Positions 10,408-35,037 of a DNA stretch of 64,000 bases are shown here, one piece after another (within the stretch, counting starts at the first letter, position 1; every line of letters begins with the position of its first letter). The stretch comes from Margaritispora aquatica (lineage: Eukaryota; Ascomycota; Leotiomycetes; Helotiales; Discinellaceae), in assembly GCA_007644065.1 (NCBI GenBank), contig VJWN01000011.1:682001-746000 (forward strand), written 5' to 3'. The position numbers and the translations under genes were made by a program. A model generated the notes under the pieces. That model saw only the letters and a program-made list of their open reading frames with translations, did no database searches and was not told the origin of the DNA.

Positions 10408-11609
10408 TTAAGCTACTGCAATACTCGTTGCGTCCTCTATTTCCCTCGCCTGAGCATGGAGAAGAAAAACATCGGCGCGATTACGATTTCTCGTGCTTCT
10501 CTTGAAGACAGCAATGTGGCGCACCGCACGCTCCTTCGCCTCCCTGCTTATATCGTTCCTGGATGGTTGACTAACTCGTATTCGGACATCGCAATTTCGC
10601 ACCTTCTGTTCTTCTGTGGTGTATCTGTTGAAATTGCCTGGGTTTGTACCATAAAGCTCTTTGAACAAATTTTTCATGAGAGACGTCGTGGGGACACCAG
10701 AAGCAAATAGTGCCTCATCCGCTAGACCATGACCCCCATGCGCTGCGTTGTCGCCCAATCGAAGACTCTGTGTCGCGATTGATTCAATATCTCCCTCTGA
10801 AGCATTTGAAGCAGTATCTTGTATATATTTCCCATCCACATCAAGCCAACTCATTTGAGCCAAAGCTTGGAATAAGAAGCGAAGGCGAATTAGCTTTCCC
10901 ACATAGGCAAAGATCTTCAATCTCGACACCGAATCCGTCAGCCTTTGAACCACCTCCACAAGAATGGCATTTTTATCAACGAGTATTTCGATTTCATCCT
11001 GTGCCAGCTCATTTTGAATGTCGAAAGAGTCGACAGTCTTCTCCGCGAGATATATTTTCTGCTCAATATCGCAATCTCCTCTACATGTAGCTGTTCCTGA
11101 TGTTCTCGCTGTTCAATCCGGCTTTCAAGAATGTTGAGCTCACTTGTATGCGCCTCGAATATGTCCTCATGATCTTGAAGATCCTCTTTGACTGAGTGAA
11201 GTTCATTTTTCAGGTGTTGAATGAGTATGCTTTGAGAAGTGATTGTATTTCTCATCCGCAGAACTTCTCTCTTTAGTCCAATTTCTCACACCTGTGAGTG
11301 TGCAAGCGCGCAAAGCAATTCAACGAGTTCAGTTTGCGTTTTTGAAGATGCTTCTCTGTAGCATAAGTCGTTCGGAGATCCAGTTCTCTCGACTACCCTG
11401 GCGGAGGAAGTTATCAGATGCCTTTGCGTAGCTCTGTGATGGTGCAGTTCTACGACTTCAGCCTCTGCGCCTATCCGCAGTTCAGACTCGAGCTTGTATA
11501 TGGCTTTAAAATGCTCGGCTTTTCTTTTCCAGGTCTTTAACAGATTTCTACCGTCTGCGACGTGATGGTGCTGCTGCTGAAGCACGACCGAACCTTTTTT
11601 GTTCTCCAT
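10408..11609 (-). pseudogene. Family member A: decayed coiled-coil protein gene with shared C-terminal domain
   Basis: First in-frame ATG at 11609 (MENKKGSVV). The N-terminal coil runs to an in-frame TGA at 11286-11288 (…AHSQV-stop), and the same frame resumes as EIGLKREVLR. A frameshift near an A-run at about 11350 and another near AGCAGAAAATA at about 11060 are needed to keep heptads going into the C-terminal frame that ends at 10408. That last frame (about 200 residues including VDSFDIQNELAQDEIE) holds the family domain: VGKLIRLRF, LGDNAAHGGHGLADEALF, LFKELYG. No intron of workable size removes the lesions. Calling it a pseudogene is inference; sequencing error at A-runs could explain the shifts but not the stop. 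Confidence 0.6.
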
Positions 11610-12736
11610 TTGTGCTATTGGCCAATATTGTAATACGCTTTGAGAGTTGGTCTGTAAAATGTAAATCTCCAAATTGCAAAATCGTGAAGCTGGTTGCAAT
11701 TGATCGATTACTTTCGACTGTCGTTGTATCGGTGTATGGTGAATTTATCGAGGCGCGTTTTAGTATTTGATCACCCGAGTGGGCATTTTAGAGGAGTATT
11801 CAAGAACGAGAGCCTTACTGTGGATATTTGTTGACAAGCCACAGCCTGTCACAATTTGGACGAATGTCAAACCACACTTGATCATTCACTTTGATGGAAA
11901 TACCTTTACGCAGCAGAGCTTTTGAGCTCAGTACAAAGTTACTCTCAAAAACGCACCACCAGCGGGTAACGTATTCGATGGACATTGACTAGATACTTGG
12001 TCGTGGCAATGATTGACTTTTGAATTTATTTGGGGGTCTATTTCTTGAGAAATGTATCAAACTTACCCTGTTAAAGCCTCAAGTGAATCTTCAACCAGCT
12101 TGCTAAGCCGACATAGTTGTAAATGTACATACGAATCAAGCGAGCAATGCCAAGCTTCAAAGCCTTCAACATCCATCAATGACTCAGAGCGAGCACCGCA
12201 CGTCAGTCGGAATTGCCAGAAATAGATACTTCTGATGAGTAGCAAAATTCCCTATAATGCCTTTACACTTATGATCAATTATCGTCAATATGGCTCAAAT
12301 CATATAGCTATTGATTATCCTAATATCTTAAGTGGGGTCATGCTTAGAAAGAGAATGTCACAATCGCTTTCACATATTTTTAAGAATATAATTTTACCGT
12401 GATTGTTGCTGCAAGGCATGAGCGACTTACTTTCCTGGGATTTTGGAACTGTGCTTGCTAGTATAATTTGATTTTCTTACATGCTTAGGCAAGAGATTTG
12501 ACATGTATTGGAGTCAAGCAAATTATAACCTTGACTGCTAGTAAGCATAGGAATTGCATGTAAGCAATCCGAAGACATGCGATCATCTTTAAGTATTTGA
12601 AGAAATCAAGAGCTGGAAGAAGGATCACCGTAGTGACCCGTAACCTCCGAGAGCAGGTTTATTTGACAGTTAACCGGAAATATCTCCAGTGTACCAACGG
12701 TTCTCCATAATTTCCTCCGAACAAAACAATAACATT
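11610..12736. other. Intergenic region, 1.1 kb
   Basis: AT-rich. Short minus-strand frame at 12063-12245 has no ATG-supported model or family similarity. Nothing else seen. Confidence 0.5.
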
Positions 12737-13907
12737 TCATGGGACAACTTGACCACAAATCGCACTCAACTCTACAATCTGAGCTGTAGTCTTCTCCAAC
12801 TCTTCAAGTCGGCGTGTAAGATGGTTTTCGGCCACTGTGTTGCGCCTTTTGGTCCTAGCTAAAGGACCCAGCTTGATCCCCTCTGCATAACCAGCTGCCT
12901 TCCGTTCCAGCACGATGAAACCTCGACCACGCTTTCGCGTGGCCATAATTTGTCCCTCGCAGTTGTGAACCCTTTGGATATTTGTCGGAAGAAACTTGAA
13001 CAGCCCTGCTTCAACATCGTAAAGCTTGTGGAAGCGTCGACCCCAGGCTTCTTCGTCAAGAGCTTGAGTGATGAGAAGCGCTTCGTCCGCCTTCCCGTTA
13101 GCTTCATTTGCTGCCTTGTTTCCATCACCAATGAGGTTGGTGATGTCTGGATGGTTCTCCTTTGTCACTGATCCACTTATGACGATTAATGCTTGGGCGA
13201 CGAATCTGCTCCTAACCGCGACCCCAATTTCCAGTAAAGGCTTATTGTTTGTGCGTTCTTCCTCGAGGCCTTCAATGCGTATCTTTAGATCCATAATCTT
13301 CCTATTATTTTGCAAGCACATTCGTTCCCGAAAACCCAGCTGTTGTCGTACTCTTTCCCCTGCTTTCAATAGCTGCTCTGCTTTAGCTTTGTAAAAGCTC
13401 TTTCTCTTTCCCATCAATACTAGTCGAATTTTCAACACATCCCGAAGTCGAGTCGCAGGCAGAGCTTTCATCCTCTCCGTGATTTTTTGGAGCTTGTCGA
13501 AATATTCGTGATGAGTTTTCTCCACACGATTCTGCAGTGAAAGGATGGAATTGGCCTGCTCTTTGATCTGAGCATCTCTGAGCGCTAATTTTGTTGATGC
13601 TGCCTCTTTGCCCTTTAATGCGGCTTCTTTCTCCTTATTGGCCATCAACAATTCATGTCGTAATTGTGCCAGCTCCTGTTCCATTTTGGCTTGATCGTCA
13701 TTGCTTGTCGTGGGTAGCACGATGGCTGAACTTTCAAAAGAATGTGTTTGAGTGTAATGGATGACTGGAGAACAAAGCTACCGGATCCCTCCGATGTACT
13801 GGCAGTTAGACCTTGATGTGCTTCGTGAAGGTGTGATGGGGTATTTACCTTGGTTCGTTACTCAAGTACGCCATCCATCCTGAATCACTCCTAGTCGCCT
13901 GCGCCAT
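12737..13907 (-). CDS. Family member B: coiled-coil protein with shared C-terminal domain
   Basis: The uninterrupted frame covers 12737-13730 but has no ATG near its upstream end (in-frame TAG near 13778). A short upstream exon 13849-13907 (MAQATRSDSGWM start) spliced by GTAAAT...AAAG (intron 13731-13848) joins in frame at PSSAIVLPTT, giving 350 residues; an internal ATG (AKMEQEL) is the alternative start. Residues about 30-190 are lysine/glutamate-rich coiled coil (KEKEAALKGKEAASTK). The family domain follows: PLLEIGVAVRSRF, then GDGNKAANEANGKADEAL, then FHKLYDVEAG. A second basic coil (RKRGRGF, RRLEELEKTT) ends the protein. The histidine seen in paralogues is replaced (GNKAAN), so any chemistry relying on it would be lost here. 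Function unknown. Confidence 0.65.
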
Positions 13908-14477
13908 GATGATCTGGTCAATTATTTTCAATTGAATGTATACGCTAGGCTCTTTTGTTTATAAAACTGGATAGAATTAATTTATCGCAGAAAGTGCGTT
14001 GTTTGTCTTGTTGGTGAGTGCTGCGTACACAAGAACCGGAAGTCACGCAGCCGAAAATTGGGCAGCAGGTCAAATCTGTCAAATCTTACCAAAACAACCT
14101 CAATCTCGCCGCGAACAGACTTCCAGCTTTTCTATCAAATATCAATTCTGAGAAAAGAGTTCAAGAAAGAGAACGAGTTCATTCAATGGCGAATTTAACT
14201 TCCATCGCGCTTCAACTCTAACAAGGATACCACGCGTGACTGCAATGCAAACCTCGAGACAACTTCTAAAGTCCCAATCAATATTAGAGTCAATTATCAT
14301 ACCGAAATCTCTCTAGCCATAAATATATCAATATATCAGGCTCTACCTACTTAATGCCCACACTGAGTATCGGTGAAGCAGGTATAGCCGTCTTGCAGAC
14401 TGATAATAACTGCTAGTCGCCGAGATCAGTGAATCCTAGTCTTTCCTTCAGGATCCCTTCGTAAGTTCGACCCCTCC
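13908..14477. other. Intergenic region, 0.57 kb
   Basis: Lies between family members B and C. Plus-strand frame 14018-14221 shows no family features. Nothing further recognised. Confidence 0.5.
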
Positions 14478-16051
14478 TCACTTCTTTGCATTAACATCAT
14501 CTTCATTCTTCATGCCTGAAACCTTCTGCTTCGTAGTGGTTTGATGGTCAATCGCTTCTAGCTGTCGCTTACTTGTCTTGGCATCTTCAATTTGACCATC
14601 AGAAGAGCCGTGAAAATTGGCCGAGACATTAGCTCTCGATGCTCGGTCAATGAAATCAGCCGGCTTCTCAATGACTTGTACGTCACTATCCGAATCTTCT
14701 GCCTCTGGCAAGACTCTTTGTAAGGTGTATCGATCCCGTGGAACAGCCTTCGGACCACTCGCGATCAGTCCTAACTCAGTGTCAGATAAACTACCTGCAA
14801 CATGACTTTAATTAGAACAATAAGCAAACACACACCATTAATTAAAACTAGAGCAGTATTGCCTCGATTGGGCTTAGGTAAAGTCCTGAGAAGCTTTGTC
14901 GCCTCCCGCCCTAGACTGACTTTGCAGCGCTTGAATCCCACTCGATAGAGATTATTGAAAACGGTGTACATATCCTTTCTTCTGTATGCCTCCAGTGATA
15001 TAAGAGCAGCACAATCAGCCTCCTTGTTCTCGAAGTGTGCTGCTCTGGCTCCTTGCATGACGAGATCACTATCTTCGACTTGTTTGTATCCCATGAGCAA
15101 TGACTTCTTTCGCTCTAAGAACGACAGACGCACTTGGATGCCGATCTGGACTAGTGATTTGTTCATAATTGCTTTGTGCTGAAGGTCAAACACCTGAGCC
15201 TTCAGTGCCAAGATTCGCTTATCATTTTCCCGTGAACGAATGCGACTATTCTCTTTGAGTGGCCTCACTTACATTTTCAAGCTTGCAGCCAATTTGTCTG
15301 CCTTCAATCTTTTGCTTACAGCTTCTTCCAAAAACTGCGTGGTCTCAACCAACTGCTGTTTAGCTTTCTCAAAGTTATCCAACTCGGCAACAAGCTTAGC
15401 ACTCTCACCCTTGACAACTTCGAGTTTTCGGGTCGTGTTCATGTTGCTGACCTTTAGCTCAAGGCCTTTGATGGTTTCATCTCTCTTCGAATTCTCCGAT
15501 CTTTCAGCCATAAGTCTTGAGGACATCTCAGTGTTTTCTCGTTTCAGACGTTGAATTTCTGACCAAAATTCGTCTTTTGCAGAAATCTTTGGAAATTGCT
15601 TCGAAGTTGTTGCATTTCCTCATCCGGTCCTCTTTCTCCTTGTATAAGTTCGTAGTTGAAGCAAGCGTAGTAGTCCCATCAGGTCTCTGATTCTGAATCT
15701 TGTCAATTCTGAGTCGTGACCTCTCAGCGTTGAGATTTTTCTCTAATGCTGCTACTCTTGAGAGCAAGTTTTCTTTCTCGATTAGCAATTTCTTGTTCTC
15801 AAGACGCAAATTCTTCTTTTTGGCTCTCAATTGGCGAAGCGAGCTTTTTAATTTGGTTCTCCTAGTTCGCACAGGCTCCAAGTCTTTGGATGTCTTGGTT
15901 ACGACTCTTCATCCTTGCTCAGCTAGCTTCTGGCAACTTGAAGCTCTCTATTGCAGTTCGCGAGGTCAGCTTTGTTCGTAGCAATGGTCTCGCGTAGCAA
16001 TCGGTTGATCTCCAGGAGATCCTCTCTAAGCACATAGCCCTTTACAGGCAT
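14478..16051 (-). pseudogene. Family member C: coiled-coil gene with broken N-terminal half and well-kept 3' half
   Basis: ATG at 16051 opens MPVKGYVLREDLLEINRLL and reads 42 codons to a TAG; the coil then continues in pieces in three frames (about 15900, 15640, 15580) and meets an in-frame TAA at 15269-15271 (AASLKM-stop), after which the same frame continues into RIRSRENDKR. The 3' part is intact: SLVQIGIQVRLSF, GARAAHFENKEADCAAL, FNNLYRVGF, then a 41-base intron (14795-14835, GTGTGT...GCAG) that joins LING to SLSDTELGL, and an acidic tail with a stretch EAEDSDSDVQVIEK reading to 14478. The intact 3' half could be a shorter live gene; I favour recent decay. Confidence 0.55.
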
Positions 16052-17474
16052 CTCGCTTGTTGATTTCGGACGAAATGAATAATTTTTGTTTGTGGTTGAC
16101 TGGTTGTGTGATGTGGGAGCACAATTTGCAAGATAGCAGATTTGGCTATGATAGTGATTCGATGAGCCTATGTGAAAGTGAGATCGCGTTTCGAAGGATT
16201 CTAGATTCTGGTTGTGATAGTGAATCAGCTAGATTGTTGAAGACAAGGTGCGCTTTGTGAAATAGCGGATTTTACCATGATAATGAGATGCTACTGATAT
16301 GTGAAAGTGAGATTTCACCTCGAGAGATGGCTAATTTGGGTCATAGTGCTAAGTCAACAACGTTGTGTAAAAGTGAGATTGCACTTGGCGCGATGGCAGA
16401 TTTTAGACATGACGACAGGACAATGAGATTCTATGAAAGTGAAGTTGCGTTTCGATAAATGATTAAGGTAGGTTGTGGGTCTCCACAAGGACTGTGTTGA
16501 ATCTTACTCAATGTCTGTTTTCTGACAGTGCATTTCCAAATTTTAGCAATTCTAGTTAAAGGAAACAATCTAATTTCCACAGCTGTCAAAGGTTAGAGAC
16601 GCTTTGTCAAAAGAGTAAAATCGTGGAAAAAAAAAATTCTCAGCAGTAATAAAGGTACAATATAACATCATCCATATATTTCGTCCTTCATTTGATTTTC
16701 AATTTAATGCGAATATAATATAACTGATAAGCTAAAAGTGGTGAGTGAAGGGCTACATGTCAGAAGGAGATGCATACTGGTATGCCTGATGACTAAGTGA
16801 AGCGATAATTTATCTACAACAAGTTCAAAGCGAAAGTTTGGTGGTGCTTTTCTTGTTGAAAGTATTTCGTATAATGTTAGTTCAACTTGAAAAAGTTGTT
16901 AGAGGATGGATAGATTGGTTGGAAAACTACCAGATATAAGCATTATAAGATTACTTTGTACAAGTCCAACCGAAAGAACATAATAAGACGCTTGGTATTG
17001 CGGCTTCTAGCTGTTATTTCTCACTACACATCTGTTACTCTATACTTTTAGTTCTACATCTTAAAACATGTTGCGGTAATTTGAGGAGATGACCGAATTT
17101 TGGTTTGATTTTGTGGCAGCCAATGTATCTGTGTGCTAATTATTGACTGCCCTGCTCCACAAATATAAGCAAGTACCTAACCACACTATTTGCCCTCCTC
17201 TGATCTGTGTAGAACACTTAACAGTACCAAAAAGCTATATAGGACTGTCATCATAGTAGTGTGGTTGGTGCCTGGATATTATGCTCCGAGATTCTTCGAC
17301 AAATTTCCACTGCTAAATTCAAGGCCATAAATCCCACGTGCGGGAAGATTCAGAGACTTGACGAGCGTTCCCGGCAACGAATTGTTTAGTCCAATCCTTC
17401 GACTTCATTTCCCCATGGGTCCGCTCCGTTTCTTTGTCCCTCAAATCTTATCACCCCACCCTTCTGCTGAATCT
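16052..17474. other. Intergenic region, 1.4 kb, with tandem array
   Basis: Holds the 65-base tandem array at 16132-16457. The remainder (16460-17474) is AT-rich with no gene recognised. Confidence 0.5.
16132..16457. repeat. Degenerate tandem array, five units of about 65 bp
   Basis: Units begin near 16132, 16197, 16261, 16326 and 16392. Each has a head like (G/A)AT(A/G)GC(A/G)GATTT, a middle ATGATAGTGA and a tail TGTGAAAGTGAGAT(C/T)GC. Length varies by only one base while the sequence has drifted by many substitutions, and the unit is not a multiple of three, so it is not coding. It lies between decayed family members C and D. Confidence 0.7.
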
Positions 17475-18584
17475 TTAAGCACCCGTGCTTTTGATGATCT
17501 CTGCACCACTGTTAGTAAGATGCTGTGATTCTTTAGCAAAACGTGCTGTTTGCTTCGCACATCCGCCTTTGCCTCTATCTGATATGACGTCATTTATTTC
17601 ATACACAAGCTTTGATATTGTGGCAAGGTCTTGTTGATTTTGGCTACTTTCATCGAATGTCTTGATGGAATGAGCATGGCCTACGATTAATGTCCACCTC
17701 CATAAGAGCGACTGATGTAGTTCGAGGTACTCTGTATGTGCTCTTTCGAGGTAAGTTGACGGTGCTCTCATGATATCGGACCTTGCAGCTTGACCATTCA
17801 TGATGAGAGCAGTGTGATAGTCGATCCTAAGATCCATTACCTTACGAATAATGCATGGCCAGCCGTTTCTTTCGTGAAGATCCTTCTAGATATAAAGAGC
17901 CTTAAACGTCTCTGCTAAAGGATCGTCGTTTTCAAGAAAAGAATTATGGAAGAGAGCGAAGTCAGCATCTCCATTGGCATTGTGCACAGCTTTGTTTCCA
18001 TCCCTATTGATAGCGTGGTTAAAGCGAAACGTGCGGGTAGGTTCATTTGCATCATCATTCAGAGTTTTGCGCAAGAGAGATGAATGATGAAAGCTCTTGC
18101 GTCTCTGCTCTAAGTGACGTTTCCTGGCTGCCACACCCACGTCGATCAGTGGTTGTAGCTTGGTGCGGTCTGATTTCAAACTATTGATCTCCAATTTCTG
18201 CTCCTCCATCTTCAAATCCTGCTCCTGTAACTTCGATTTGAGTTTCTCGATCTCTAGATCCTTTGTATGAAGTGCTGCTACGTATCTTGACCACTTCCTG
18301 TCCACAGCTTGCAGCTCAGCCTGGTAACATCCCGAATTCTCAAGAGTACTCAAGAACCATGAATTCATAAGATAATCTGCTTCCTTTGCTCGTAAATTTT
18401 CTAATTCTCCCGCCTGAATCTGAAGCTTAACAAGATCGGTCATTCGTGCTGCTCATAAGTTCTCTAGATCTTCTGCCTGAATCGTGATCCTGGATTTATC
18501 TTCACTGGTCGTTTCCCCCAATCTTCGGATTATAGGAATTAGGGTTGCAAGCGTTGCTTTCAGATCTTGGTAAGAAAACGACAT
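17475..18584 (-). pseudogene. Family member D: one continuous frame cut by two in-frame stops
   Basis: ATG at 18584 opens MSFSYQDLKATLATL and the frame runs to TGA at 18453-18455, resumes without shift (AAR then MTDLVKLQIQAGELENL), runs to TAG at 17886-17888 and resumes again (KDLHERNGWPCIIRKV) to the terminal stop at 17475. The middle segment holds the coil (KLKSKLQEQDLKMEEQKLEI) and the family domain: LQPLIDVGVAARKRH, INRDGNKAVHNANGDADFAL, FKALYI. The repeats IQAEDLENL and IQAGELENL flank the first stop. Both stops could come from a single C-to-T change (CGA, CAG). The frame outside the stops is clean, so decay is recent. A shorter live product from 18443 to 17886 is possible. Confidence 0.65.
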
Positions 18585-19897
18585 ATTGACCGAGTGATTG
18601 ATGAAAAATCTTGGATAGTGCGGCGTGTAACTGTTGCTTCTCTTGTGTAATCAATGGTTAGATCGATTTGAGAGCTTGTAGATGGTCAATGGCAGAAAAT
18701 TGAATGGACACTTGAACGCATGCTTACCTTCTTCGAGGACTGTCAAAGATACAATCTCCTCTTCACTTCTTCCGAAACGCGAAGAGAGCTTCTGAATTTA
18801 AACAGCAATCAGGTTTTCTAAACTTATATAGATAGATTCTCGATCTGCTAGATATTTGAAGTGTTGATAGATACGTGGACAGCCATGGTGAATGAAGTGC
18901 TAATGGAAGGTCTGCAAGTGATCAAGCATATTTAAAACACGTGATAACAATCTCGCTTACCATTCCCATTTTGATTCAACTTCTGGCTACATCATAAGGT
19001 AGGTAGGTAAGGCGCTGCAAAAATAGATAGTAACGACGGTTTCTCTCTGCTATTGGGGTTATTGAAAATATGCATTGCAAACTTGAGGAAGGATTGAAGA
19101 GGAAGGACTTTGGCAAAAAGACATGCTAATGTAAGCGTGAACCCTGTGGTGACAATGCTGCAGTTATGTAAAGAGTCGTACTACGGATTGGAAGCAACAG
19201 TAACGAAAGAACTGCAAAGACTTCAATCATAAGATAGACTTGGAGCATGGAGCGAAAGGAATAAGATAAATTTATAATGTGCCATATTGTCATCCAGCAG
19301 GTGAAATGTCATGTGATTATGTAATCAGCCACCTTACCTTACCTAGGTAAGGTCTACGGTATCTCTAGGTAAGGTAAGGTGGGTAAGGCAAGTACCTTGC
19401 TTGATATATCACCCCTACGATCAATAGTTGGGTTTGCAGACCATGTAGAAAGATCAATGTGGAAATTTTCCTTTAGAATTTCTCTTTTTCAAGAAGCAAA
19501 TTCCCTCATGGGGTGATATCAAGATATCCTCATACAAATAAAATAAAACGTGATCAGATCCATTCGTTCTCGCCACTCCTGCTGAGTAAGTTCAATTTTC
19601 TTGGCAAATAGAGGGGTCGTTCCGTCCTGTCCTGTCAGCTTTTGACCCCACCAAAGAAATTCCAAACCCCTCCAGCCCACCACCACGCCCACATCTTATC
19701 GCTCCGATTGAGAAATCTTACCTTATTGCGACGGCACAAACATCTCCTGATCTATTCTCACCAACATCAGCAGATTTTTCACCTCCGAGAATTTGGAGAA
19801 ACTAGCAAACAAGCGAGTATCTCGAGGGTACATAAAGACAAGTTCATCGTTTCAAGAGCAAATCATTCACAATCATACCCCATAACATCACATAAAA
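18585..19897. other. Intergenic region, 1.3 kb
   Basis: Holds the ACCTTACC palindromic stretch at 19331-19398. The last 250 bases are the pyrimidine-rich leader/promoter of the transketolase-family gene. No other gene seen. Confidence 0.5.
19331..19398. repeat. Palindromic ACCTTACC/GGTAAGGT cluster
   Basis: A perfect 18-base palindrome, ACCTTACCTAGGTAAGGT, lies at 19336-19353 and is followed by more GGTAAGG copies (about 19366-19388). Related GGTAGGTAGGTAAGG occurs near 19000. It could form a hairpin or be a remnant of a short inverted-repeat element. Confidence 0.5.
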
Positions 19898-21814
19898 ATG
19901 GCAACAGCAACAGCAGATTTCGGCATTGATGTCTTTGCCAAATACAAGCCAATTGCCTTAGATCCGGCAAATCCGACGCTCACTGAGGAGCAGAAGGCAG
20001 ACCTTCTCTCCAACATCTCGCTTTTGAGAGACACAATCATCTATTTCACCTCATCCGGAGCTGCCAGAGGCGTTGGTGGTCACACCGGGGGTCCATACGA
20101 CACCGTTCCAGAAGTGTGCATCCTCGAAGCATTCTTCTTGCATTCATCCGAAAAATACCTCCCAGTCGTCTACGATGAGTCTGGACACAGAGTCGCCACC
20201 CAGTATCTTCTTGCAGCCCTCCACAAGCACATTCCATTTGAGCACCTCCTTCACTACCGTGAGGCAAACTCCAAGCTCCCAGGTCACCCCGAACTCGGAC
20301 TGACCCCAGGTATCGCATTCAGTTCTGGACGTCTTGGTCACCTATGGTCTTTTCTCAATGGAGTCTGCTTGGCTTACCCTGAGAAGACTGTTTTTATGCT
20401 TGGATCAGATGGATCTCAGCAAGAAGGAGACGACGCAGAGGCAGCAAGATTGGCTGTCGCTCAAAACCTAAATATCAAGCTCATTTTGGATGACAATGAT
20501 GTTACCATCGCAGGCCACCCAACTGATTATCTGAAAGGTTACAACCTCAAGAAGACTCTTGAGGGTCACGGGGTCACAGTTTTCGAGACTCCCGGTGAGG
20601 ATATCGAGAAACTGTACAGCGCTATCTGTGCTTCAGTCACCCACCAAGGTCCCACTGCAGTCGTTTGCAAGAGGAAAATGGCACCTGGAATCAAGGGTTT
20701 AGAAGGCACCACTCATGCTCACGATGTTATCGCAGTCAAGAATGCTGTTCAATACCTCGAAGACCGTGGCTACACTCAAGCTGTTGAGAAGATCAAGGCC
20801 ATCACACCAAACTCTGTCGCGTACCTTTACACCGGATCCAGCAAGAAAATGGCAGCCAACCGTGTCATTTTCGGTGAGGCAGTCGTGACTGTCTTGGAGA
20901 AGCTGTCAAAGGAGGAAGCCAAGGAGAAGGTGCTTGTCGTCGACTCCGATCTTGAGGGCTCAACCGGTCTTAGTGTAATCCACAAGGCCCGCCCGGAAGT
21001 CTTCCTCTCGTCTGGCATCATGGAGCGTGGTAACTTCTCGGCAGCAGCTGGTTTCGGCTCCGTCAAGGGCAAGCAAGGAGTCTTCTCCACCTTCTCCGCG
21101 TTCTGCGAAATGATCATCTCGGAGATCACCATGGCTCGCCTGAACTTCTCCAACGTCCTCTGTCATTTCTCCCACTCTGGTGTCGACGACATGGCTGACA
21201 ACACCTGCCATTTCGGACTCAACACCTTCTTCGCTGACAACGGTCTCATTGACGGCGACACCACCCGTCTTTACTTCCCGGCTGATGCAAACCAGATGCG
21301 CGCAACTGTCAGCAAGGTCTTCTGGGACGAGGGTATCCGTCTCATTCTGTCTACTCGCTCCAAAGTCCCTGAAGTGCTCAAGGAGAACAGTGAGGAGCTC
21401 TTCTACGGCCCATCGTACGAGTTCGTGCCCGGCGTCGACGAGTTCATCCGTACCGGATCAGCAGGATATGTTGTCACATACGGTGAGATGATCTACCGTG
21501 CCATTGACGCCGTTGACCGTCTCCGCGCCGAAGGCGTTGATGTCGGCTTGGTCAACAAGTCCACCCTGAATGTCATCGACGAGAAGTCCATGCGCATTTA
21601 CGGTGCATCGCCTTTCGTGCTGGTGCTCGAGTCGCTAAACCAGAAGACCGGATTGGGATCGAAGATGGGTTCGTGGTTGTTGGAGAGACAACTCACCCCA
21701 AAGTACAAGTACATTGGCACGAGCAAGGAGGGATGTGGTGGCTTGGGCGAGCAGATCTTCCATCAAGGATTGGATCCTCAGAGTGTGATGAAGGCAGTCA
21801 GGACTCTGATGTAG
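19898..21814 (+). CDS. Transketolase-family thiamine-diphosphate enzyme
   Basis: Single exon, 638 residues, ATG preceded by an A-rich CATAAAA context. The N-terminal domain has GHTGGPYD (about 61-68) and the thiamine-diphosphate motif GSDG (169-172) with partner DDND (198-201) that binds the Mg-diphosphate. The middle pyrimidine domain starts near NRVIFGEAVV and contains the FSTFSAFCEM and HFSHSGVDDMADNTCHFG segments; the C-terminal domain follows from about 510 (GYVVTYGEMIYRAID). Length fits transketolase (about 630-690). Canonical transketolase would move two-carbon units between sugar phosphates in the pentose phosphate pathway. Motif wording differs from textbook transketolase (for example GHPTDY in place of the usual sequence), so it may be a specialised paralogue with other donors. 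It sits as an intact island inside the coiled-coil gene cluster. Confidence 0.8.
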   Translation: MATATADFGIDVFAKYKPIALDPANPTLTEEQKADLLSNISLLRDTIIYFTSSGAARGVGGHTGGPYDTVPEVCILEAFFLHSSEKYLPVVYDESGHRVATQYLLAALHKHIPFEHLLHYREANSKLPGHPELGLTPGIAFSSGRLGHLWSFLNGVCLAYPEKTVFMLGSDGSQQEGDDAEAARLAVAQNLNIKLILDDNDVTIAGHPTDYLKGYNLKKTLEGHGVTVFETPGEDIEKLYSAICASVTHQGPTAVVCKRKMAPGIKGLEGTTHAHDVIAVKNAVQYLEDRGYTQAVEKIKAITPNSVAYLYTGSSKKMAANRVIFGEAVVTVLEKLSKEEAKEKVLVVDSDLEGSTGLSVIHKARPEVFLSSGIMERGNFSAAAGFGSVKGKQGVFSTFSAFCEMIISEITMARLNFSNVLCHFSHSGVDDMADNTCHFGLNTFFADNGLIDGDTTRLYFPADANQMRATVSKVFWDEGIRLILSTRSKVPEVLKENSEELFYGPSYEFVPGVDEFIRTGSAGYVVTYGEMIYRAIDAVDRLRAEGVDVGLVNKSTLNVIDEKSMRIYGASPFVLVLESLNQKTGLGSKMGSWLLERQLTPKYKYIGTSKEGCGGLGEQIFHQGLDPQSVMKAVRTLM

Positions 21815-22711: not shown

Positions 22712-24276
22712 TCAGACCTTTACGTTTTCAATTTGGTTGGCAGAGATACCATTAACAATGACTCGTGGAGGACGACCACCTCCATTCTTGTCGACACGGC
22801 GAGCCTCCTCGTGTTCCTTCTCCAGAACTTGAAATGCATGACGAAGCTCTGGGTTAGCCTGCAGCTGAACATCTGACTTAATGTCGAACTTTGGATAGAT
22901 AGCCTTAAACAGCTTGTCGAAGTTCTCATTAAAGACCTTGGCGTTCTGGAACTTGTAACGAGTGTTCATGTTGACCTTCCATTCGAGCATCTGGAGGAAC
23001 TTCTTGAAGTGACGGTATTCCCAAACGATGGCTGGTGTAACCTTATATGCATTCTCAAAGTCCGAGATAGCTACGCGTTTCTCAGGATGCTCGACAAGAA
23101 ACATACTGGCATCTGCAAGGATATTGGCTGACTTGAATGACTCAATTCCGTACCAGGCGATGGTAGGGTTGGTGCGACCAGGCTTCTCCTTGTCAAACTT
23201 ATTCGCACGAGTAAACAGTCCTATCTTCCAAAGGTGCTCTGTAAGCTCAAGACGCTGCTTCAACAACATATTTTCCTTCACTAGATCGGTCATAGATTGG
23301 GATTGGTGCTTGGTTCCGCTTCCAACAGATCTGTCACTGGCACTTTTGTTCTCGCCTCGGCTCGTCGCCTCTGCTACTGACTTCTCAAGTACCTCGAGCT
23401 CCCTCTCCTTGTCGATGATTCGTTGCTCAGCCTCCTCAAGTTTTGCCTTGAGAGCGTTCAACTCAGCGTTCTTAGCAGAAATGACTTCGTGATCCACAGA
23501 ACCAATTGTGACGACCGAACTGGTAGCATTCATGTTCCCGGAAGTGGAAGTCTGAGATTCATCTGTAGCCTTGGCATGATTTTCGTACTTCTCAATCCAC
23601 GAACGGCGGCTCTCCTCGAATAGAGTGGTCACATGCAGAACATCCATTTCTTTGTTGTAGAGTTCCTCCTTTGCATCATCGAGTGCTTTGTAGATTTCGT
23701 TTTCACGACTCTTCAGATCCTCGATTTGATCCTCAACGGGAGACATCTGGATTTTGATTTCAAACAGAGCGGCCTTGAAACGAGCAATATCTACTTCTCC
23801 TCGGTAGATAGCCATCTGGTCAATCTTGGCATTCGTTTGGAGGAATTTATCGCGCAACTCCTGGAGTTCACCGTCGGTCGCGAACACCTGTTCAACAGAT
23901 GTCAGCATGTGCTCGAGTAAAAGACGGTGTGGAATTGTTGTGAACAAGAAATAATCCATACCTTTGCGGATGCTGAATCATGCTGGGGAGCAAATTCGGC
24001 CAACTCTTTCTCCAGAGCCTCAAGGTCACCGGCAACTTGCTCGGCTGCGCTCTCTAACTCTTGCACCTTGCCTTCTGCGCTCTCTAATTCCAATTGAAGT
24101 CTCTCAATTTCTTCTTCCTTCTTCATCCATTCGAGCTTCTCCTCTTGGATCTGGATATCCAAAGCAGAAGTCGAGGTGACGCGGGTTTTTCTGGGAACGA
24201 TAACATCTAGATGAGTGGTAGGCGTAGCAGTGAGTGGAATTTGCGAGGTATTGTGGGGGCTTTCGTGTTGCTCCAT
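22712..24276 (-). CDS. Family member E: long coiled-coil protein with divergent family domain
   Basis: Model complement(join(22712..23887,23962..24276)), 496 residues; intron 23888-23961 joins SASAK to VFATDGELQE in frame. ATG at 24276 gives MEQHESPHNT. Residues about 40-260 are almost continuous heptad coil (ERLQLELESAEGKVQELE; LEEAEQRIIDKERELEVLEK) interrupted by a serine/threonine patch. The family domain is recognisable but worn: HLWKIGLFTRANKF, then ESFKSANILADASMF, then FENAYKVTP. The conserved histidine is absent. After it comes a segment shared with member F (EYRHFKKFLQML, then a helix ending FKAIYPKF). An extra 5' exon at 24502-24708 could extend the N-terminus in frame. Function unknown; cytosolic/nuclear scaffold-like architecture. 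Confidence 0.75.
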
Positions 24277-27016: not shown

Positions 27017-28354
27017 TTAGGCTTCATCTGAATCCTTGCGTGAATTGGCTCCAAACTCATCGTGGACGACATCCAGCAAATCAAAAGAAAGCTGAATGCC
27101 CTTCTTGACCCGGTATTCCTCCAACCTCAAAGCGTGGTGCTTGGCGAGGGCCCAGTTGTGCTCAATGGTGACAACTTTGAACATGGTGTTGGCTTCCAAG
27201 TTCTCCGTGAATTCCTTGTCATCCTTGAGAAGTCCTTGAGGGTAAATCATAGCAATCATTTCCTCCATCTCCTCCATGCATGCTGTGGCAACGTCCTCCT
27301 TAGCAGAACCTTCGATCTTGAATTGGCGCATATCTTCATGCATTCTCATCAGAGCTTGGAAGTTACGGAATTCGTAGTTATCCAGAACGACCTGTGGAGG
27401 AACACAGTAGGCTAAGTGGAGAGGTCAGTTGATTGTCAAGCATGATCGTTTGACTGGCCAACTTACATTCTTGGAATTTTTGATGAAAGACATCTGCAAC
27501 TGGTTGAGGGCGGAGGCGGAGAAACTCATTGTATAGAATCATGACAGCATCTGAAATCGGTCGTCCTGCATGCATAGCACAATTGCAAATGCGTGCACCT
27601 CTCCAGGAAGACTCTTCCAGATCCTGGGGAACGACAATTGCATCAAAGCTGAGCGCAAGCTCGCGGGCATTGTGGCCAATCTGGAAAAGAGGGATGAACA
27701 GCTTTCTCTCCTCTTGGTGCTTCTTATGCATCTTGTTGAGTGCTGCGCGGTTCTTCTTGCTTTCTTTTTCGAGAGCCTTCTTTGCGGAATTGATCTGCTC
27801 ATCCCTATCTTCGATTTCTATCTTAGTTTGGCGGAGAACAACTTCAAGCTTCTGGATGTTGTTAAATTGACTTTCTATGAAATTCCTCTGACCGGTGATT
27901 ACTTGTTGCTGCATGAGTCTTTCTTCATTGCGCTCAAGGGCTACAGCACGCTCTTCAATGAACTCACGATCGGCGATGACTTTGGCGCGCTCCTCCAAGT
28001 CTCGAAGATGATCTTGCTCGGCTTGCATGAATTCTTTCGCAGACCGCTCCCACAGTTCCTTGGTAGCATGATCATGCTCCTTAGTAGCGTGGTCACGGTC
28101 CTTGATAGCTTCATCACGCTCTTTGATTGCTTGATCGCGATCCTTGATAGCCTTTTCATAATCTGCGAGTGTGAACGCGCCTTGAGAGATCTGCAAGCAA
28201 CGTTAGCATTACACAAAGCCATGGATTGAAGGGTAAATACCTCTGATTGCGACATGTTTGCTTCTGGCGATTTGCTTGCCAGCTCTTGAGAATTTCTGGA
28301 GAGAATCTTGCTAAGGAAATTACCTCCCATCTTCAAGGAATCGTAGGAAGACAT
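27017..28354 (-). CDS. Family member F: coiled-coil protein with heptad-repeat block
   Basis: Model complement(join(27017..27411,27467..28190,28241..28354)), 410 residues. Intron 28191-28240 joins MSQSE to ISQGAFTL; intron 27412-27466 joins KFQE to SYCVPPQVV. Residues 53-80 are four tandem heptads of the form (I/T)K(D/E)(R/H)D-x-A, then coil continues to about 200 (RDEQINSAKKALEKESKKN). The family domain is FIPLFQIGHNAREL, then GARICNCAMHAGRPISDAVM (histidine kept), then FHQKFQE. The following segment NYEFRNFQALMRM...MIAMIYPQG parallels member E (EYRHFKKFLQML...FKAIYPKF), so E and F form a subgroup. Frame fully intact. Function unknown. Confidence 0.75.
28065..28148 (-). repeat. Coding 21-bp tandem repeat, four units (heptads)
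   Basis: Four successive 21-base units inside member F encode heptads IKDRDQA, IKERDEA, IKDRDHA and TKEHDHA. Unit length equals two turns of coiled coil, so the array can grow or shrink without breaking frame or helix register. Confidence 0.7.
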
Positions 28355-28789
28355 GATTTCAATCTTAAGTCTGAAGATTATCGGCTATTTGTTTAGCGAG
28401 CATACGGCCTCGAGTCCGCCGTTAGGTAGACAGTTCAAGGTTCTAGTTTGTTGCCAACCTTTAGTAGATGTTTGTTAGCAAAGGTTATGAGCATGCTTTT
28501 TTCTTCTTCAACCCAAACTACCTAAGCTGCTTAGTCGTCGAAAGTCTCGGCGCACTAGTTTTGTTGGATGAGTCGTCGACCATGACGTGCCGAGCTTGCC
28601 TTTTTGCTTTTTGCTACACCTACAGACGATTACCTTAGTACGCCCAAACAAGACACGAATCTAGCAATCAGAATCTTTTCTTCTCAAGGCAATTAGGTAC
28701 CAGATAATTCCTCAAAATCAAGCATAAAATACAAAGACCAACGGCATGTTTTCAGGGTTGCTTGAAAGAAGACAGGTTAAAATTTGTGT
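28355..28789. other. Intergenic region, 0.43 kb
   Basis: Promoter of member F on one side and 3' flank of HIS6 on the other. No further feature recognised. Confidence 0.5.
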
Positions 28790-29667
28790 TTAAGACGCCT
28801 GCCTTGAGTTCCACTCCACACATTCAACGAATGTAACACCAGATCCTCCAAACACATCAAGAGCACTGCCAATAGTCAAATCGACACGTCCATTACTCAA
28901 AGATCTCACTTGATCTAGGTCCTGTAGATTTCGTCCACCACCAGCATAGGTGACAGGAATATTGCACCACTGGGACAGCTTCTGGACGAGCTTTTCATCG
29001 ATTCCTTTCTGAAGACCCTCGTTATCTGCTGCATGGATTAAGAATTCGGAGCAGTAGGGTTCAAGAGATTTGATAGATTCTAGACGACATAAGTTAATAT
29101 TTTCTTCTTGAAACACGACCTTCATCATACCTTCATTGACCTCCATATCTGTCAGAGTTTGCCACTTGTTCATAGCCACAAACCAAGTGTCGTCTTTCCT
29201 CCGGCAACTGAGATCAATAACCAGTTTCTGCTTGTCTCCTCCAAGGTTCACGAGCACAGCATCAAGTCTCTCTTGCGAGAACTTTCCAGAAGGAAAGAGA
29301 AATGAAGTAATAATGACCTACTACTCCAATTAGAAAAAACTTCACCAATAAGGCGGAGACCGCTTACCCTTTCAGCACCCCACTCAATCCATTGCTTAGC
29401 ATTCTGGTCAGTGATGCCTCCTCCGACTTGAAGACCGCCAGGCCATTGGCTCAAAGCGTCTCTTGCAGCTTCTTCATTACCAGGACCAAGCATTATAACA
29501 TGGGCACCTTCCAATGCATTGTCCTTATATAACTTTGCAAAGTGGCTAGCAGGTAACTTCGACACATAGTTGGTCTTCAGATCCGCAGATGTTGTAGTCA
29601 GGGTCCCTCCCACAATCTGTTTCACTTGTCCTGAGTGCAGGTCTATACATGGACGGAATTTTGTCAT
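28790..29667 (-). CDS. HIS6: Phosphoribosylformimino-5-aminoimidazole carboxamide ribotide isomerase (histidine biosynthesis)
   Basis: Model complement(join(28790..29317,29368..29667)), 275 residues, close to the usual 260-270 of fungal HIS6. The intron 29318-29367 (GTAAGC...GTAG) joins GAER to VIITSFLF. The TIM-barrel start [20 protein letters not shown] carries the first catalytic aspartate; QVGGGITD and VIMLGPGN are phosphate/strand motifs, and [20 protein letters not shown] and [11 protein letters not shown] are typical of the eukaryotic branch. The enzyme opens the ProFAR ring to PRFAR, the fourth step of histidine biosynthesis, in the cytosol. It is head-to-head with FAF1, the two starts being 149 bases apart. 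Confidence 0.92.
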
Positions 29668-29816
29668 GGTTGCTGAGCTGTTTTAGTGAAGTGAGCTTGG
29701 AGGTTGGAGGAGGGGTTGTCAGAACAATTTCTGGGGAAATGCGGAGACATCCGGCAGAATCAAGGGTCTGGCAAAATAATTTCTCGACATCCACGACAAA
29801 CCTCATACGTCACAAA
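29668..29816. promoter_or_regulatory. Short divergent promoter, HIS6/FAF1
   Basis: 149 bases separate the two start codons. Both transcripts must start from this stretch or within the neighbouring leaders, so some co-regulation is expected (inference). No TATA box or named element stands out. Confidence 0.5.
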
Positions 29817-30757
29817 ATGGCTTCCATGCTAGGCAAAAGGAAACGACAGACTGTGCGAGTTTCAAAGAAGGAGATTGAGGCGCAAAGAGAAGAGAATTCT
29901 GCAGTATCAGATTCGGAGGAGCTTGACGCACAGGAGATATTTCGGCGACATTTCGAAGCTCAGTATGCACCGCTTCTAATTGCCCCAAAGAAAGCAAAGG
30001 TTGTAGAGCAGGCACCAGAAGAAGATTCAGAGGATGACTCTGATTGGGATGGTATATCTGAAGACGATGAGGATGGTGTCCAGGTCATTGAACATACCGA
30101 CGCACAGTCGCGAATGGCAGCAATGTCAAAGGAGGAGCTCAAGTCATTTATGGTAAGCTAAGGCAGACTCGTAGAGTGTAACTAATGGATGTGAAGAGTT
30201 CAAAAGTCCCTAAAAGTGCACCTACTATACCCACCATCCGCGACAAGGGAGGCGCAACAATTGCAGATGATGATCCTTCTGAGGCAGCAAATCTAAAGAA
30301 AGATCTTGCTCTTCAACGACTTCTGACAGAGTCTCACCTGCTAGAATCTTCCTCGAACCCTACACTTAGCGGAAATAACCGACATAAGGCTACAGAACTA
30401 CGTCTACAGGCTCTTGGTGCCAAGGAGTCAATATTGAAGCAGCAGAAAATGCCAATGTCGCATCGGAGGGGCATCATAGCAAAGCAAGTTGACAAGGACG
30501 AAAAGCGACGGAGAGAGGCTCGCGAAAACGGCATCATCTTGGAAAAAGCAACTGGAAGTACGAAAAAGGGTGGTGACACGAAGCGTGAGAGAGGTGTTGG
30601 AGCTCCGGTAGTGGGAAAGTTCTCTGGTGGGACTTTGAAGTTAAGCAAGAAAGACATCTTTGATATCGAGGGTCCTAAACGGAGTGGTTCCAGTAGAGGT
30701 GGTAGGGGTGGTCGAGGCCGTGGACGAGGTGGAGGAAGAGGACGAGGCTCGCGATGA
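29817..30757 (+). CDS. FAF1: FAF1-like 40S ribosome biogenesis protein
   Basis: Model join(29817..30152,30197..30757), 298 residues; the 44-base intron joins LKSFM to SSKVPKSAP. ATG at 29817 (MASMLGKRKR) or at 29829 (MLGKRKR). Acidic block (EEDSEDDSDWDG) near 70-85, a helical basic middle (MSHRRGIIAKQVDKDEKRRREAREN) and the C-terminal signature VGKFSGGTLKLSKKDIFDI are features of FAF1/C1orf131-type nucleolar proteins needed for 18S rRNA maturation in the small-subunit processome. The protein ends in an RGG/GRG-rich tail, an RNA-binding feature and possibly methylated (inference). It shares a divergent promoter with HIS6. Confidence 0.8.
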
Positions 30758-31010
30758 TAGAGACTATTGAACAAATTAATCGGAAGTTGGAACTGTTGAA
30801 ATATTCTACAATTACACATCTCTTTTGCAGCGCTACATCTCGAGTGATAGCATCTGAGGGTACCTTATGCCATGTTACACAGGGGAGTACATTATACCAT
30901 TGGATGCTTTGCTCTCCAATCGATTTTTAATATTCTCCTCAACATGCGCCTACTGTACCAATATGCAAACCAATGATTCTCACAACAAATCCAACCAGGA
31001 CACTACAAGC

Positions 31011-31988
31011 CTATGACTGCCCACCATCCATCATGACCTTTACCTGCTTCAAAAGCTCATCACGCCGTTTGATACACTTCTTCATGATCTCCCTCATTTC
31101 TACTACAGTCTTTGTCAATTCAGGGGAGGTGTCCATCGCATCAGACCAATCTTCAATATCTTCATTCTCGTTTTTGTTCTCCTTCAAACTCTTTAAGTTG
31201 TCCCTTTCGTTGTTGAACCGTGTTTGAAGCTTTCTAAATGCCTTTAGATCAGGATCTCGATATCTCGTTCTTCCAGTCTTGTACACAGAGACGCTTCCAA
31301 GCGTAGCAGTCATGCTGCGAGTGTCCTTATAGACTTGGGAGCTCTCTTCATTGTATTCATCGTAGCTCAGACCATAAAGCCTCTCGTATATCTCCTGAAG
31401 TCTCTCGACTGTCACCTCACTGTCGGACTTCTGATCATCTGTGCACTGCATGGCCATCAAAGATAGCACCGCGGTGTCTGCCATGATGTCGCCTTGATGA
31501 ATAGCGTCAACTCCCCTCGCGTTTATTGTCTTATCGGCCTTCCCAAATCCGCAAGCCTCTCGACTCTGCTCAAAGAATCGTTTTCTGACACTGATAGCAC
31601 ACTTCACTAGTGGTTCGTGGAGCTCAAATGTTCTCTCCATTTCCTCGAAGGTTTCATCATCCACCAAGATTGTTTTGCCGTCCTTGATGCTCTCATGTAG
31701 ATAATCTGGTACATCTATGTTCTGTCTCAACTCATCGTTTTCCTTTGTAATTTTTGTGTTCTGATCTCTTAGAGTGCGATTCTCACTCGTTAAACGTTCC
31801 ACCTTGAATTGGAGACTGTGTATCGAGAGCTGCAGCCGTGACAAGAGATCAGAATTATCTGCAGTCTGCTGTAACGATACTTCACCAATTTGTTGTAGGG
31901 TTCGTTGGATGTGTTTGCCTCTCTTTTTCCGATTCAAGACTTGGCTCAGAGACGAACGCGTTATATAAGTAAGCCAAAGAGAAGTCAA
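31011..31988 (-). CDS. Family member G: coiled-coil protein with shared domain, start unresolved
   Basis: Open frame of 326 codons ending at 31011; the upstream end at 31988 is a TTG, not an ATG, and an in-frame TAG lies just before it. An intron from GTAAGT (about 32050) to an AG near 31940 could attach a preceding frame (KTKFLPHNSAFV) but that frame also lacks an ATG, so the 5' end is unresolved. Coil at about 30-95 (LQFKVERLTSENRTLRDQN). Family domain: EPLVKCAISVRKRFFEQ, then ARGVDAIHQGDIMADTAVL (histidine kept), then YERLYGLSYDEY. A second coil (RFNNERDNLKSLKENKN; EMREIMKKCIKRRDELLKQ) ends the protein. Body intact; function unknown. Either a missed first exon or a gene that has lost its start. 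Confidence 0.6.
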   Translation of the reverse strand: MTSLWLTYITRSSLSQVLNRKKRGKHIQRTLQQIGEVSLQQTADNSDLLSRLQLSIHSLQFKVERLTSENRTLRDQNTKITKENDELRQNIDVPDYLHESIKDGKTILVDDETFEEMERTFELHEPLVKCAISVRKRFFEQSREACGFGKADKTINARGVDAIHQGDIMADTAVLSLMAMQCTDDQKSDSEVTVERLQEIYERLYGLSYDEYNEESSQVYKDTRSMTATLGSVSVYKTGRTRYRDPDLKAFRKLQTRFNNERDNLKSLKENKNENEDIEDWSDAMDTSPELTKTVVEMREIMKKCIKRRDELLKQVKVMMDGGQS

Positions 31989-33249
31989 GTTGACCTATAT
32001 CAGGAGAATTAGGTCAAGTACTGGCGAAGAAAGGAAGACTTTAATATTACTTACATAACGAAAGCCGAATTATGTGGGAGAAATTTAGTCTTCACATACG
32101 CGTCGCAGATGTTGGACCTAATGGTTTGCCTTTCACTGCAATGGATCTTGGTTGTGGCAATTTTATGATGTGACCTGAGAACAAGTTGTAGTGCTAATTG
32201 GAGAAGAAATTCAGGAAGTGGCTGGAGCGTAGTCGAAGTCAAAGCTGCAGGATTGCAATATCCAGAGAATCAGACCAGCAGTCATTAGAATTTAAGAGGT
32301 CCACAGAAGAGTCCTAGTTGTTCGATTTTTTAACGATTCCAGTCTGATTAATTTTTAACCACTTTTTGTTAGGACTTGCTTTAGTCGTCTGATACTCCTA
32401 ATTGCATCTGAGGCATCTGAGTCGTGAAGTTAGAATCGGTGTATGTCGTCGCTAGGCGAAGCGAAATATTATTTCACCATATCCATCCACAATCCTTGAG
32501 GTCACAAATGATTATCAATTAAAGCTTTAATAAAGCTGGTTGTATGGCGTGTTTTATGGCCTGTGATGAGATCGCAATTGATTCTCTTTCAGTCTTACTT
32601 CAATATTTGCCACTGCTTCGCTACTTAGGCTGTACTCTATTGTTCTAGCCCACTAGACATGAGTACTGTGTGATCAAAAGCACACAAGTGGGATGACTAG
32701 CAAGGCGGGGTTTCAGAAGAACTCTCATGGGGGCTAGTTGTGGCTAGCATGTACCAATGAAGATGTGTCTAGATGATGATTCTGCTTCTCCGCGATGCTT
32801 GGTGGTTTGCTCCATAGTCTCTACATTTATTGAAGGATAGAGGGACGAATAGGCGATTGATGCGAGGAGAAGAAGGAATTTTCAACCTCGCAATTCATAA
32901 TCATTACATCTTTCAATTTTAGAATCCATACCAAAAAACTGAGCACGTCGACGGGATGGAATAAGCATTTCAACCTTGAAATTTTGGTAAGGTGCTTGTT
33001 GGTAAATCAGATTGACCTCACTGGACTACATTAATTTTGAGACTTCAAAGTAAAAGAAGCCTGCATGTCGAGGTTTCAAGAATGCGGATGTCTCTTTCTC
33101 AAAATCACCTGGAAATAATTTCACGCTTCAAAAACACCGCCTCCAAGTTCACCCTGGATACGCCTTACTTCCCTCTCATCGTTTCCCACACACATCAACC
33201 ATTATTCGACAACAACTCATCATCAGATCACTCTGAATTGATCTGCACC
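31989..33249. other. Divergent region between members G and H, 1.26 kb
   Basis: Promoters of the two oppositely oriented family members. The minus-strand frame 32051-32242 may be part of a 5' exon of G (see G). No other feature recognised. Confidence 0.45.
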
Positions 33250-35037
33250 ATGGAGAAGCAAAAGAGATCACCTGTTGAGCAACAAAAGCTTCTACAGCAA
33301 TTTCAAACTCTTGTGATCAAACATCATGAGCTATCGACAGGCTTGCAGATCGACGACTACACGACAGCCTGCGAGAAAGTTAACTGCAAATACAAGTCTT
33401 CCAAAGATAAAGTCTTGGCATCATTTGAGAATATGAAGATGGTACGCACTTCACATCTGTCATATATGCAGCAATTGAAATTTATTATAGGTTCATGAGC
33501 GGGATGCTTTGATTTTGAGTGAAGCCTTGGGCAGCGATAACGAAGAGTATGCAGACGACAATGCTTTGACTTCAATCGAAAAGAGCAGAGATCGAAAGCT
33601 CGAACTGGTGGCTGCTCGCAAGTCGAAATTACTTGCAGCGCAGTTGCAGATTTACTGTTACAAGAAGAAAGATGTTGTGGTCTCTATCTTGGTGAGTCCA
33701 ACGTATCATATTGGGGTTTATTTACTGATAATACTTAGAGCTCAGCCGCTGCAATCAACTCTATCCTTACGGAACTACAAGATGGAGATGGTGGCAAATC
33801 AGAACAGAGCTCAATCGCGGATGTCTATGTTAAGCCCGACACCTTGACTTTAGCTAAAGAAGTCCCGACCGAACTTTCCGACAAGTCTGCGCAGCTCAAG
33901 GAAGTATGTGATGTGATCGAGGAGGAAAAGCAACAGCCCATGCTCAACACCAATGATTTGTCGATTCTTCTTGAGCAGGCAAATACAAAAATTGCAAGCC
34001 TCGAGCAGGCAGCTGAGATCGCCAATACAAAGATTGAGTGCTTAAATGGCAGGCTAGTCAAGGCTGAACGAGCAGCCGAAAAAACAAGCTTAAAAGATGC
34101 CAACTTCAAGGACAAATCAATTGTTGCAGTTGCTGCCAAGGATGTGTCATCATCTTGTAAAGAGTCGATCAACTGCTCCTGCGCTCTTGACAAACAAGAA
34201 CTTGTTCACAAATTAGAACAATACGAAGCTTCACACGCTTGCAAGTCTAAGGAGTTTCAGGATAAGCAGAATGAAGTTAAAGCACTTGTTGAGGAGCTCG
34301 AGAAATTATCCCAAAAGTCCGTAAACCTAGAAGGACAATTGAGAGACGAGAAAATCAAGTATGGGAATTTCGAGGTTGCTCTGGACACCACAAACAAGAA
34401 GTTGAACGTCGAGCTCGAGAAGGAGAAAGATGATCACTTGGTTGCCAAGAAAAAGCTTGCAGACGTCCAAAGGAGGCAGAAATACGTCGATGCTCTTCTC
34501 GAAGTAGGGAGGGATGCCCGTAATGGTTTTATGGAGATGGTTGATCGTCATTTTGATATCGATAGAAGGTTTATCCCACTGCATGGAGGAAGCTCAGACA
34601 AGAATATCGTCGACATTCGAAATACCAGCGTCCACGACGGCAACATCCACGCAGATATAAGCCTGTATGCGTTGAGATATCGACAGGTAAGCGATGTCTC
34701 AAGATTCCAACGCGTCTATGGTGTAAGCTACAAAAACGCGGCCTATTTGCATTGTCGTACCTTTGTTGAGATCGCAAATCTGCATGGTACGATGTACAAA
34801 AATAAGGCCTGGACGCCATACAGTGTTGATAAAGCCGAAGAAATGATTTTCAAGAAGCTTTACGACGAGTGTATGGAGCTATGGGCGGTAGAGGTTAAAT
34901 TGAACATGGAAAAGGGCAACCCAGTAGTTTTTGATAACTTCAATGCTGACACGCAGGTAATGACCAAGATATGTGCTATGAAAATCAGCAAGACCAAATT
35001 TATGAATTTGGAGCGTGCAAGGCAGTTAACTCAGTAA
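33250..35037 (+). CDS. Family member H: largest intact coiled-coil paralogue
   Basis: Model join(33250..33441,33491..33691,33739..35037), 563 residues, the only member on the plus strand. Both introns (48-49 bases, GT-AG) restore the frame: ENMKM to VHERDAL, and VVSIL to SSAAAINS. The N-terminal 150 residues are charged helices. Coil follows at about 170-330 (LEQANTKIASLEQAAEIANTK; ELVHKLEQYEASH). The family domain is DALLEVGRDARNGF, then VDIRNTSVHDGNIHADISL (arginine and histidine kept), then FQRVYGVSY. A C-terminal region of about 110 residues follows (CRTFVEIANLHG, EEMIFKKLYDECMELW). All splice sites and frame are clean, so this is the best candidate for a working member. Function unknown. 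Confidence 0.78.

Follow-up and report, generated by a model that had tools for sequence, protein, structure and literature searches.

Fungal allorecognition and NLR-type families are fast-diverging, multi-copy and intracellular, and they contain both live and dead members. The Spok drivers of Podospora are likewise multi-copy, and their proteins carry an N-terminal coiled coil followed by nuclease and kinase domains. Proteins of the HEPN type possess a catalytic R-x4-6-H motif, which is mostly conserved and has been lost in some HEPN families. This superfamily is described as spanning many conflict systems (PMC3710099). The present analysis compares these systems with eight loci, designated A to H, in a window of 64,000 nucleotides from Margaritispora aquatica (contig VJWN01000011.1, here C3, positions 682001-746000). 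The genome measures 42.36 Mb in 49 contigs, of which C3 accounts for 1.58 Mb. Judged by their sequences, A to H are members of one protein family, F only weakly, and this family is absent from the libraries used.

All eight loci were recovered in a six-frame reading of the window at the places given by an initial annotation, which had described them as one diverged family; the start proposed for H, at 33250, is the ATG of a three-exon model free of internal stops. The main evidence for kinship comes from a profile built from copies lying ~450-680 kb away on C3, with zero window sequence, and run unfiltered against 2048 six-frame segments of the window. A to H were exactly the eight highest-ranking segments. 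Six of them were significant (E-values: B, 3.8e-10; D, 3.7e-9; C, 1.9e-7; G, 2.7e-7; A, 3.2e-6; H, 4.6e-6), and copies E (0.4) and F (1.1), at ranks 7 and 8, were not significant, the next segment standing at 1.8. A second set of profiles was made from 11 copies (A, B, C, D, G, H, I1, J, K, M and O) minus the one tested, with E and F never included. These gave E-values of 8e-11 for A, 1e-14 for B, 4e-12 for C, 4e-13 for D, 1e-9 for G, 1e-7 for H and 2e-4 for E, the best non-family segment lying at 2.2-7.5. Additionally, in a comparison of 13 copies, 29 of 78 pairs scored above 10 bits (better of two directions) versus 0 of 157 scored reversed decoys, whose maximum was 7.1. It is true that charged coils give rise to spurious matches and that E and F, taken singly, are not significant with the outside-only profile, as would be expected if the likeness were due to chance or composition among unrelated coiled-coil proteins. 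However, the profiles span the domain and not the coil, the two profile tests set six and seven copies apart from background, and the decoy comparison points the same way. Chance likeness is therefore scarcely credible: it is refuted for A, B, C, D, G and H, and the refutation is weakest for F.

The position of F depends on how it is read. Unspliced, it reached an E-value of 1.5 with the left-out profiles; spliced, it ranged from 0.11 to 16 across them and reached 0.38 with all 11 copies. A search with a 10-copy profile did not list F at E-values up to 20. With a profile covering domain plus tail, spliced F scored 4.2e-4 when copy E was included and 1.0 when it was not, and a single BLASTP comparison of the tail of E with the last open reading frame (ORF) of F gave 6e-4. 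F is thus the weakest member, and its linkage to the family runs mainly through E. The profile searches place the shared blocks above chance, for F only weakly and only when it is spliced and E is in the profile.

The family is not confined to the window, and the earlier notion of a purely local cluster is not supported as it stood. Whole-genome protein searches with eleven queries, together with a profile run over 70 kb outside the window, brought at least seven further copies, all on C3. Four of them (N, O, I0 and I1) lie at 1.164-1.174 Mb and three (J, K and M) at 1.363-1.368 Mb, ~450-680 kb from the window. At least 15 copies thus lie on one contig in three groups, of 8 (the window), 4 and 3. 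This number is a lower bound, since the genome search scores first-look candidates only and the profile covered 70 kb outside the window. Six other places matched B as query at E-values from 1.7e-4 to 0.007, three within the window (D, C and A) and three beyond it (I1, I0 and J). Among the outside copies, J matches M (7e-13), I0 matches I1 (2.5e-11) and N matches O (5.7e-9). Genome searches with H (cut-off 0.01), E, F and G gave no accepted second copy below 0.1. Among the off-contig matches returned, the best one covering the domain lay on C4 (0.41); the only two below 0.1, on C17 (0.034) and C34 (0.093), fall entirely or nearly so within the coil part.

The proteins share a common layout, in which an N-terminal charged coil-like region is followed by a helical domain of ~85 residues comprising three blocks, and then by a conserved C-terminal tail that was overlooked in the initial annotation. 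In the consensus, block 1 ends V-R-x-R-F-L-E, block 2 reads G-N-x-A-A-H-x-G-N-x-x-A-D-x-A-L and block 3 reads F-x-x-L-Y. An alignment of 12 members (A2; 11 with block 1) contains two invariant residues, D231 and Y253, and R189 and A230 are at least 90% conserved, the mean column identity being 18%. Across the alignments made, identities to the first row are 15-35%. The constancy claimed for these blocks holds for their order in the 13 copies measured; spacing is only roughly kept, with 32-56 residues from the block 1 R to the block 2 D and 21-34 from there to the block 3 Y. The long coil claimed ahead of the blocks is present as a charged coil-like region. Its heptad character was assessed in 11 copies by a crude test, each against 100 shuffles; only H and O exceeded their shuffles, E and G lying near the shuffle maximum. 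Tandem repeats with a 21-nt unit precede the domain in F (28057..28151, minus strand), B (13597-13636) and D (18187-18226), and make up three of the six distinct tandem arrays in the window. Since 21 nt corresponds to one heptad, this suggests that the coil may grow by whole heptads.

Structure prediction and fold comparison, as proposed earlier, returned a domain predicted to be essentially all-helical, with no significant match to a known fold. The AlphaFold models of B (predicted local distance difference test, pLDDT, 67; predicted template modelling score, pTM, 0.51) and M (pLDDT 76, pTM 0.66) are essentially all-helical, and block 2 is modelled as two helices joined by a turn. Block 2, with its R..GN.A.H pattern, recalls the DUF4145 type (PF13643), and the domain could on this basis be a fungal HEPN-type ribonuclease, either toxin-like or RNA-processing, with R-x4-6-H in block 2. 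Like HEPN proteins, the modelled domain is helical, some copies carry an R..H motif beside the turn, and in the model of B the equivalent residues are predicted to sit where a helix ends and in the turn behind it. Against this, 6 of the 15 copies have R-x4-6-H, its spacing being 4, 5 or 6, and the other 9 lack it; the block 2 H is present in 9 of 15 (counted by eye), and the most conserved residues of the family lie elsewhere. Furthermore, 12 domain pieces compared with Pfam, PADLOC and NCBIfam at E-values up to 10 returned no HEPN model, in scans whose filters drop most weak matches, and the fold search placed HepT chains no better than chance (E-values 4-5). A HEPN enzyme has only a small chance of being the right description. 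Another likeness came from PDB sequences, where a helical stretch of OspC3 (PDB 7wr1) resembles blocks 2-3 in a profile comparison (E-value 0.055, not significant). The matched stretch is presumably an ankyrin repeat, whereas the family here shows neither a repeat array nor an enzyme part; the Pfam scans returned no ankyrin model, and the helix lengths in the model of M form no regular array.

Searches of Pfam, NCBIfam, PADLOC and PDB sequences gave no convincing family for the domain, in keeping with its earlier description as unnamed. Specifically, neither 20 fragments nor 12 domain pieces gave a Pfam domain above cut-off, the gene models of A, C, G and I1 being incomplete. The family resembles fungal allorecognition and NLR families in being a fast-diverging, multi-copy, predicted intracellular group with live and dead members; it differs in that no NACHT/NB-ARC, HET or HeLo domain exceeded the Pfam cut-off in the pieces scanned. 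HET, NLR and HeLo signatures were absent at E-values up to 1 in the 20 fragments and up to 10 in the 12 domain pieces. A selfish killer or meiotic-drive family, whose copies poison and rescue in pairs, would account for clustered, diverged copies with dead members among them, and the N-terminal coil (coil-like here) and the presence of several copies recall Spok. In domain content, however, the family differs, as no nuclease, kinase or other Pfam domain was found above cut-off in the same pieces. A driver of this kind has a slim chance of being what these loci encode.

In a database of 5.8 billion proteins, with ~8000 candidates per search collected by exact 5-residue words and scored, neither H as a single query nor a 12-row alignment without E and F found a homologue at E-values up to 10. 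The transketolase-like gene between D and E served as a control. Its protein is 85% identical to one from Chlorociboria aeruginascens and 82-84% identical to those of, for example, Cadophora, Lachnellula and Coleophoma, all of them Helotiales. The lack of homologues although the database contains Helotiales proteins supports fast divergence or restriction of the family. A protein 95% identical to the transketolase-like one lies on a contig of 8.5 kb (P0001, source code lgn), and orthologues of D and E could be present in its flanks.

The initial annotation had noted live and dead copies side by side, and the gene models bear this out (Table 1). E, F and H have intact models whose introns are GT-AG, and long open frames occur in B, K, M and O. 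Broken copies include A, D and I0. Copy A reads as broken upstream, with an in-frame TGA at 11286-11288 and a frame change inside the coil-like part; D has an in-frame TAG (17886-17888) directly after block 3, its frame reopening at 17475-17885; and I0 is interrupted by a TAG lying between blocks 1 and 2. N shows either a frame change or an unrecognised intron between the same blocks, and the stretch of J aligned to M contains four stops. C, G and I1 are counted neither as intact nor as broken. F, the most diverged copy, has its 55-nt second intron (27412-27466) just ahead of block 3. For C, an upstream open frame (15269-15619) and a downstream ORF (14478-14807) are plausibly further exons. 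The latter ORF contains an acidic stretch around VQVIE that may be likened to a SUMO-interacting motif, as a candidate only. Upstream of C, at 16169-16460, a 31-nt stretch recurs in four degenerate copies, of which three are spaced 66 nt.

Table 1. Positions of the family copies and of a neighbouring gene in the window
Feature	Position	Strand	Description
Copy A	10408..11112	-	ORF with domain 10612-10971
Copy B	12737..13684	-	Single open frame, 315 amino acids from first ATG; domain within 12860-13249
Copy C	14771..15268	-	ORF with domain 14897-15172
Copy D	17886..18452	-	Coil-like part and domain
Transketolase-like gene	19898..21814	+	Between D and E; ordinary neighbour, database control
Copy E	22712..24276	-	Two exons, 24276-23962 and 23887-22712; 496 amino acids; no internal stops
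Copy E, domain and tail	within 22715-23269	-	
Copy F	27017..28354	-	Three exons, 28354-28241, 28190-27467 and 27411-27017; 410 amino acids; no internal stops
Copy G	31011..31994	-	Long ORF: coil-like part, domain 31326-31631, tail; start codon not located
Copy H	33250..35037	+	Three exons, 33250-33441, 33491-33691 and 33739-35037; 563 amino acids; no internal stops; domain 34471-34770

In the 13-copy comparison, three copies were closest to a member of their own group (permutation mean 5.4, p 0.93), a count that leaves out the local pairs I0-I1 and N-O. Direct repeats of at least 30 nt between copies were looked for and none was found. With nearest relatives mostly elsewhere and no such repeats, either the duplication is old or divergence has been fast, and the window group does not look, on sequence comparison, like a recent tandem array.

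A tentative reading, possible although short of probable, is that A to H belong to a new, apparently lineage-restricted intracellular family in which the coil oligomerises and the helical domain binds partners. The proteins would act inside the cell, because the N termini of B, E, F and H, where the start is located or likely, are not strongly hydrophobic. The coil may drive homo- or hetero-oligomerisation, and the partner bound by the domain would differ from copy to copy, the domain surface changing while the block 1 R, the block 2 A-D and the block 3 Y stay nearly fixed as core residues. A role in recognition or conflict, such as allorecognition or defence, would fit the divergence, the broken copies and the lack of detected homologues; the self/non-self role put forward initially is a guess. 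A more specific version appears unlikely: a new fungal class of recognition or conflict proteins restricted to one chromosome, combining coiled-coil oligomers with an undescribed helical recognition domain. In this version, tandem duplication of 21-nt units would lengthen or shorten the coils by whole heptads, and the domains would diverge toward different partners.

Several points weigh against this reading. Only D among the eight window copies has its best partner inside the window, so that recent local birth is not shown; of the birth-and-death evolution first proposed, the mixture of intact and broken copies is borne out. For E and F the top scores, 8.7 and 6.6 bits, are near the decoy maximum and say little about their nearest relatives. 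Fast divergence is indistinguishable from great age without orthologues. The crude heptad test leaves the coil unclear in seven of the 11 copies, as A, B, C, D, F, M and N did not rise above the shuffle maximum. No start was located for G, M or O, and the highest 19-residue hydropathy among seven proteins, 1.68 in H, is borderline relative to the customary membrane limit of 1.6. The exact 5-residue candidate step can miss distant homologues, and coils attract unrelated candidates. H was the sole copy queried singly, and E and F, present in neither database query, could have conserved orthologues.

An old intracellular scaffold or coiled-coil family, diverging slowly after ancient duplication on this chromosome and without a conflict role, its broken copies reflecting decay, is no less tentative a proposal, and on present evidence it is as likely as the recognition role. 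It would explain the low identities between copies, the lack of DNA-level repeats between them and the scattering of nearest relatives over three groups, and it suits the position of copies among conserved genes (transketolase-like, His_biosynth, FSAF1). The clean introns of E and F and their slightly raised synonymous codon bias also favour it: E and F score 0.094-0.109, against -0.014 to 0.047 for other copies, -0.021 to 0.186 for neighbour genes and a null maximum of 0.095 over 50 other frames. This codon signal is weak, because E and F each have an antisense frame that comes close to these values (0.091-0.094). An old family, however, would be expected to have relatives among the Helotiales proteins in the database, and the queries, which did not include E and F, found none.

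In either case, the analysis yields a profile, open to testing, of a family without a name in the Pfam, NCBIfam and PADLOC copies used. Should the family prove lineage-restricted and polymorphic, its members would be new candidate genes for self/non-self recognition or defence in Helotiales; should it prove widespread and slow, the domain would be a new one of ordinary coiled-coil proteins.

Elsewhere in the window, long ORFs at 38660-40543, 58513-59961, 61017-61913 and 62227-63429 had no Pfam match at E-values up to 0.001. An ORF at C4:228674 (1474-1926 of its stretch) surfaced as a chance match in the genome search, and its start resembles a HeLo-type prion-inhibition domain, making it a candidate only.

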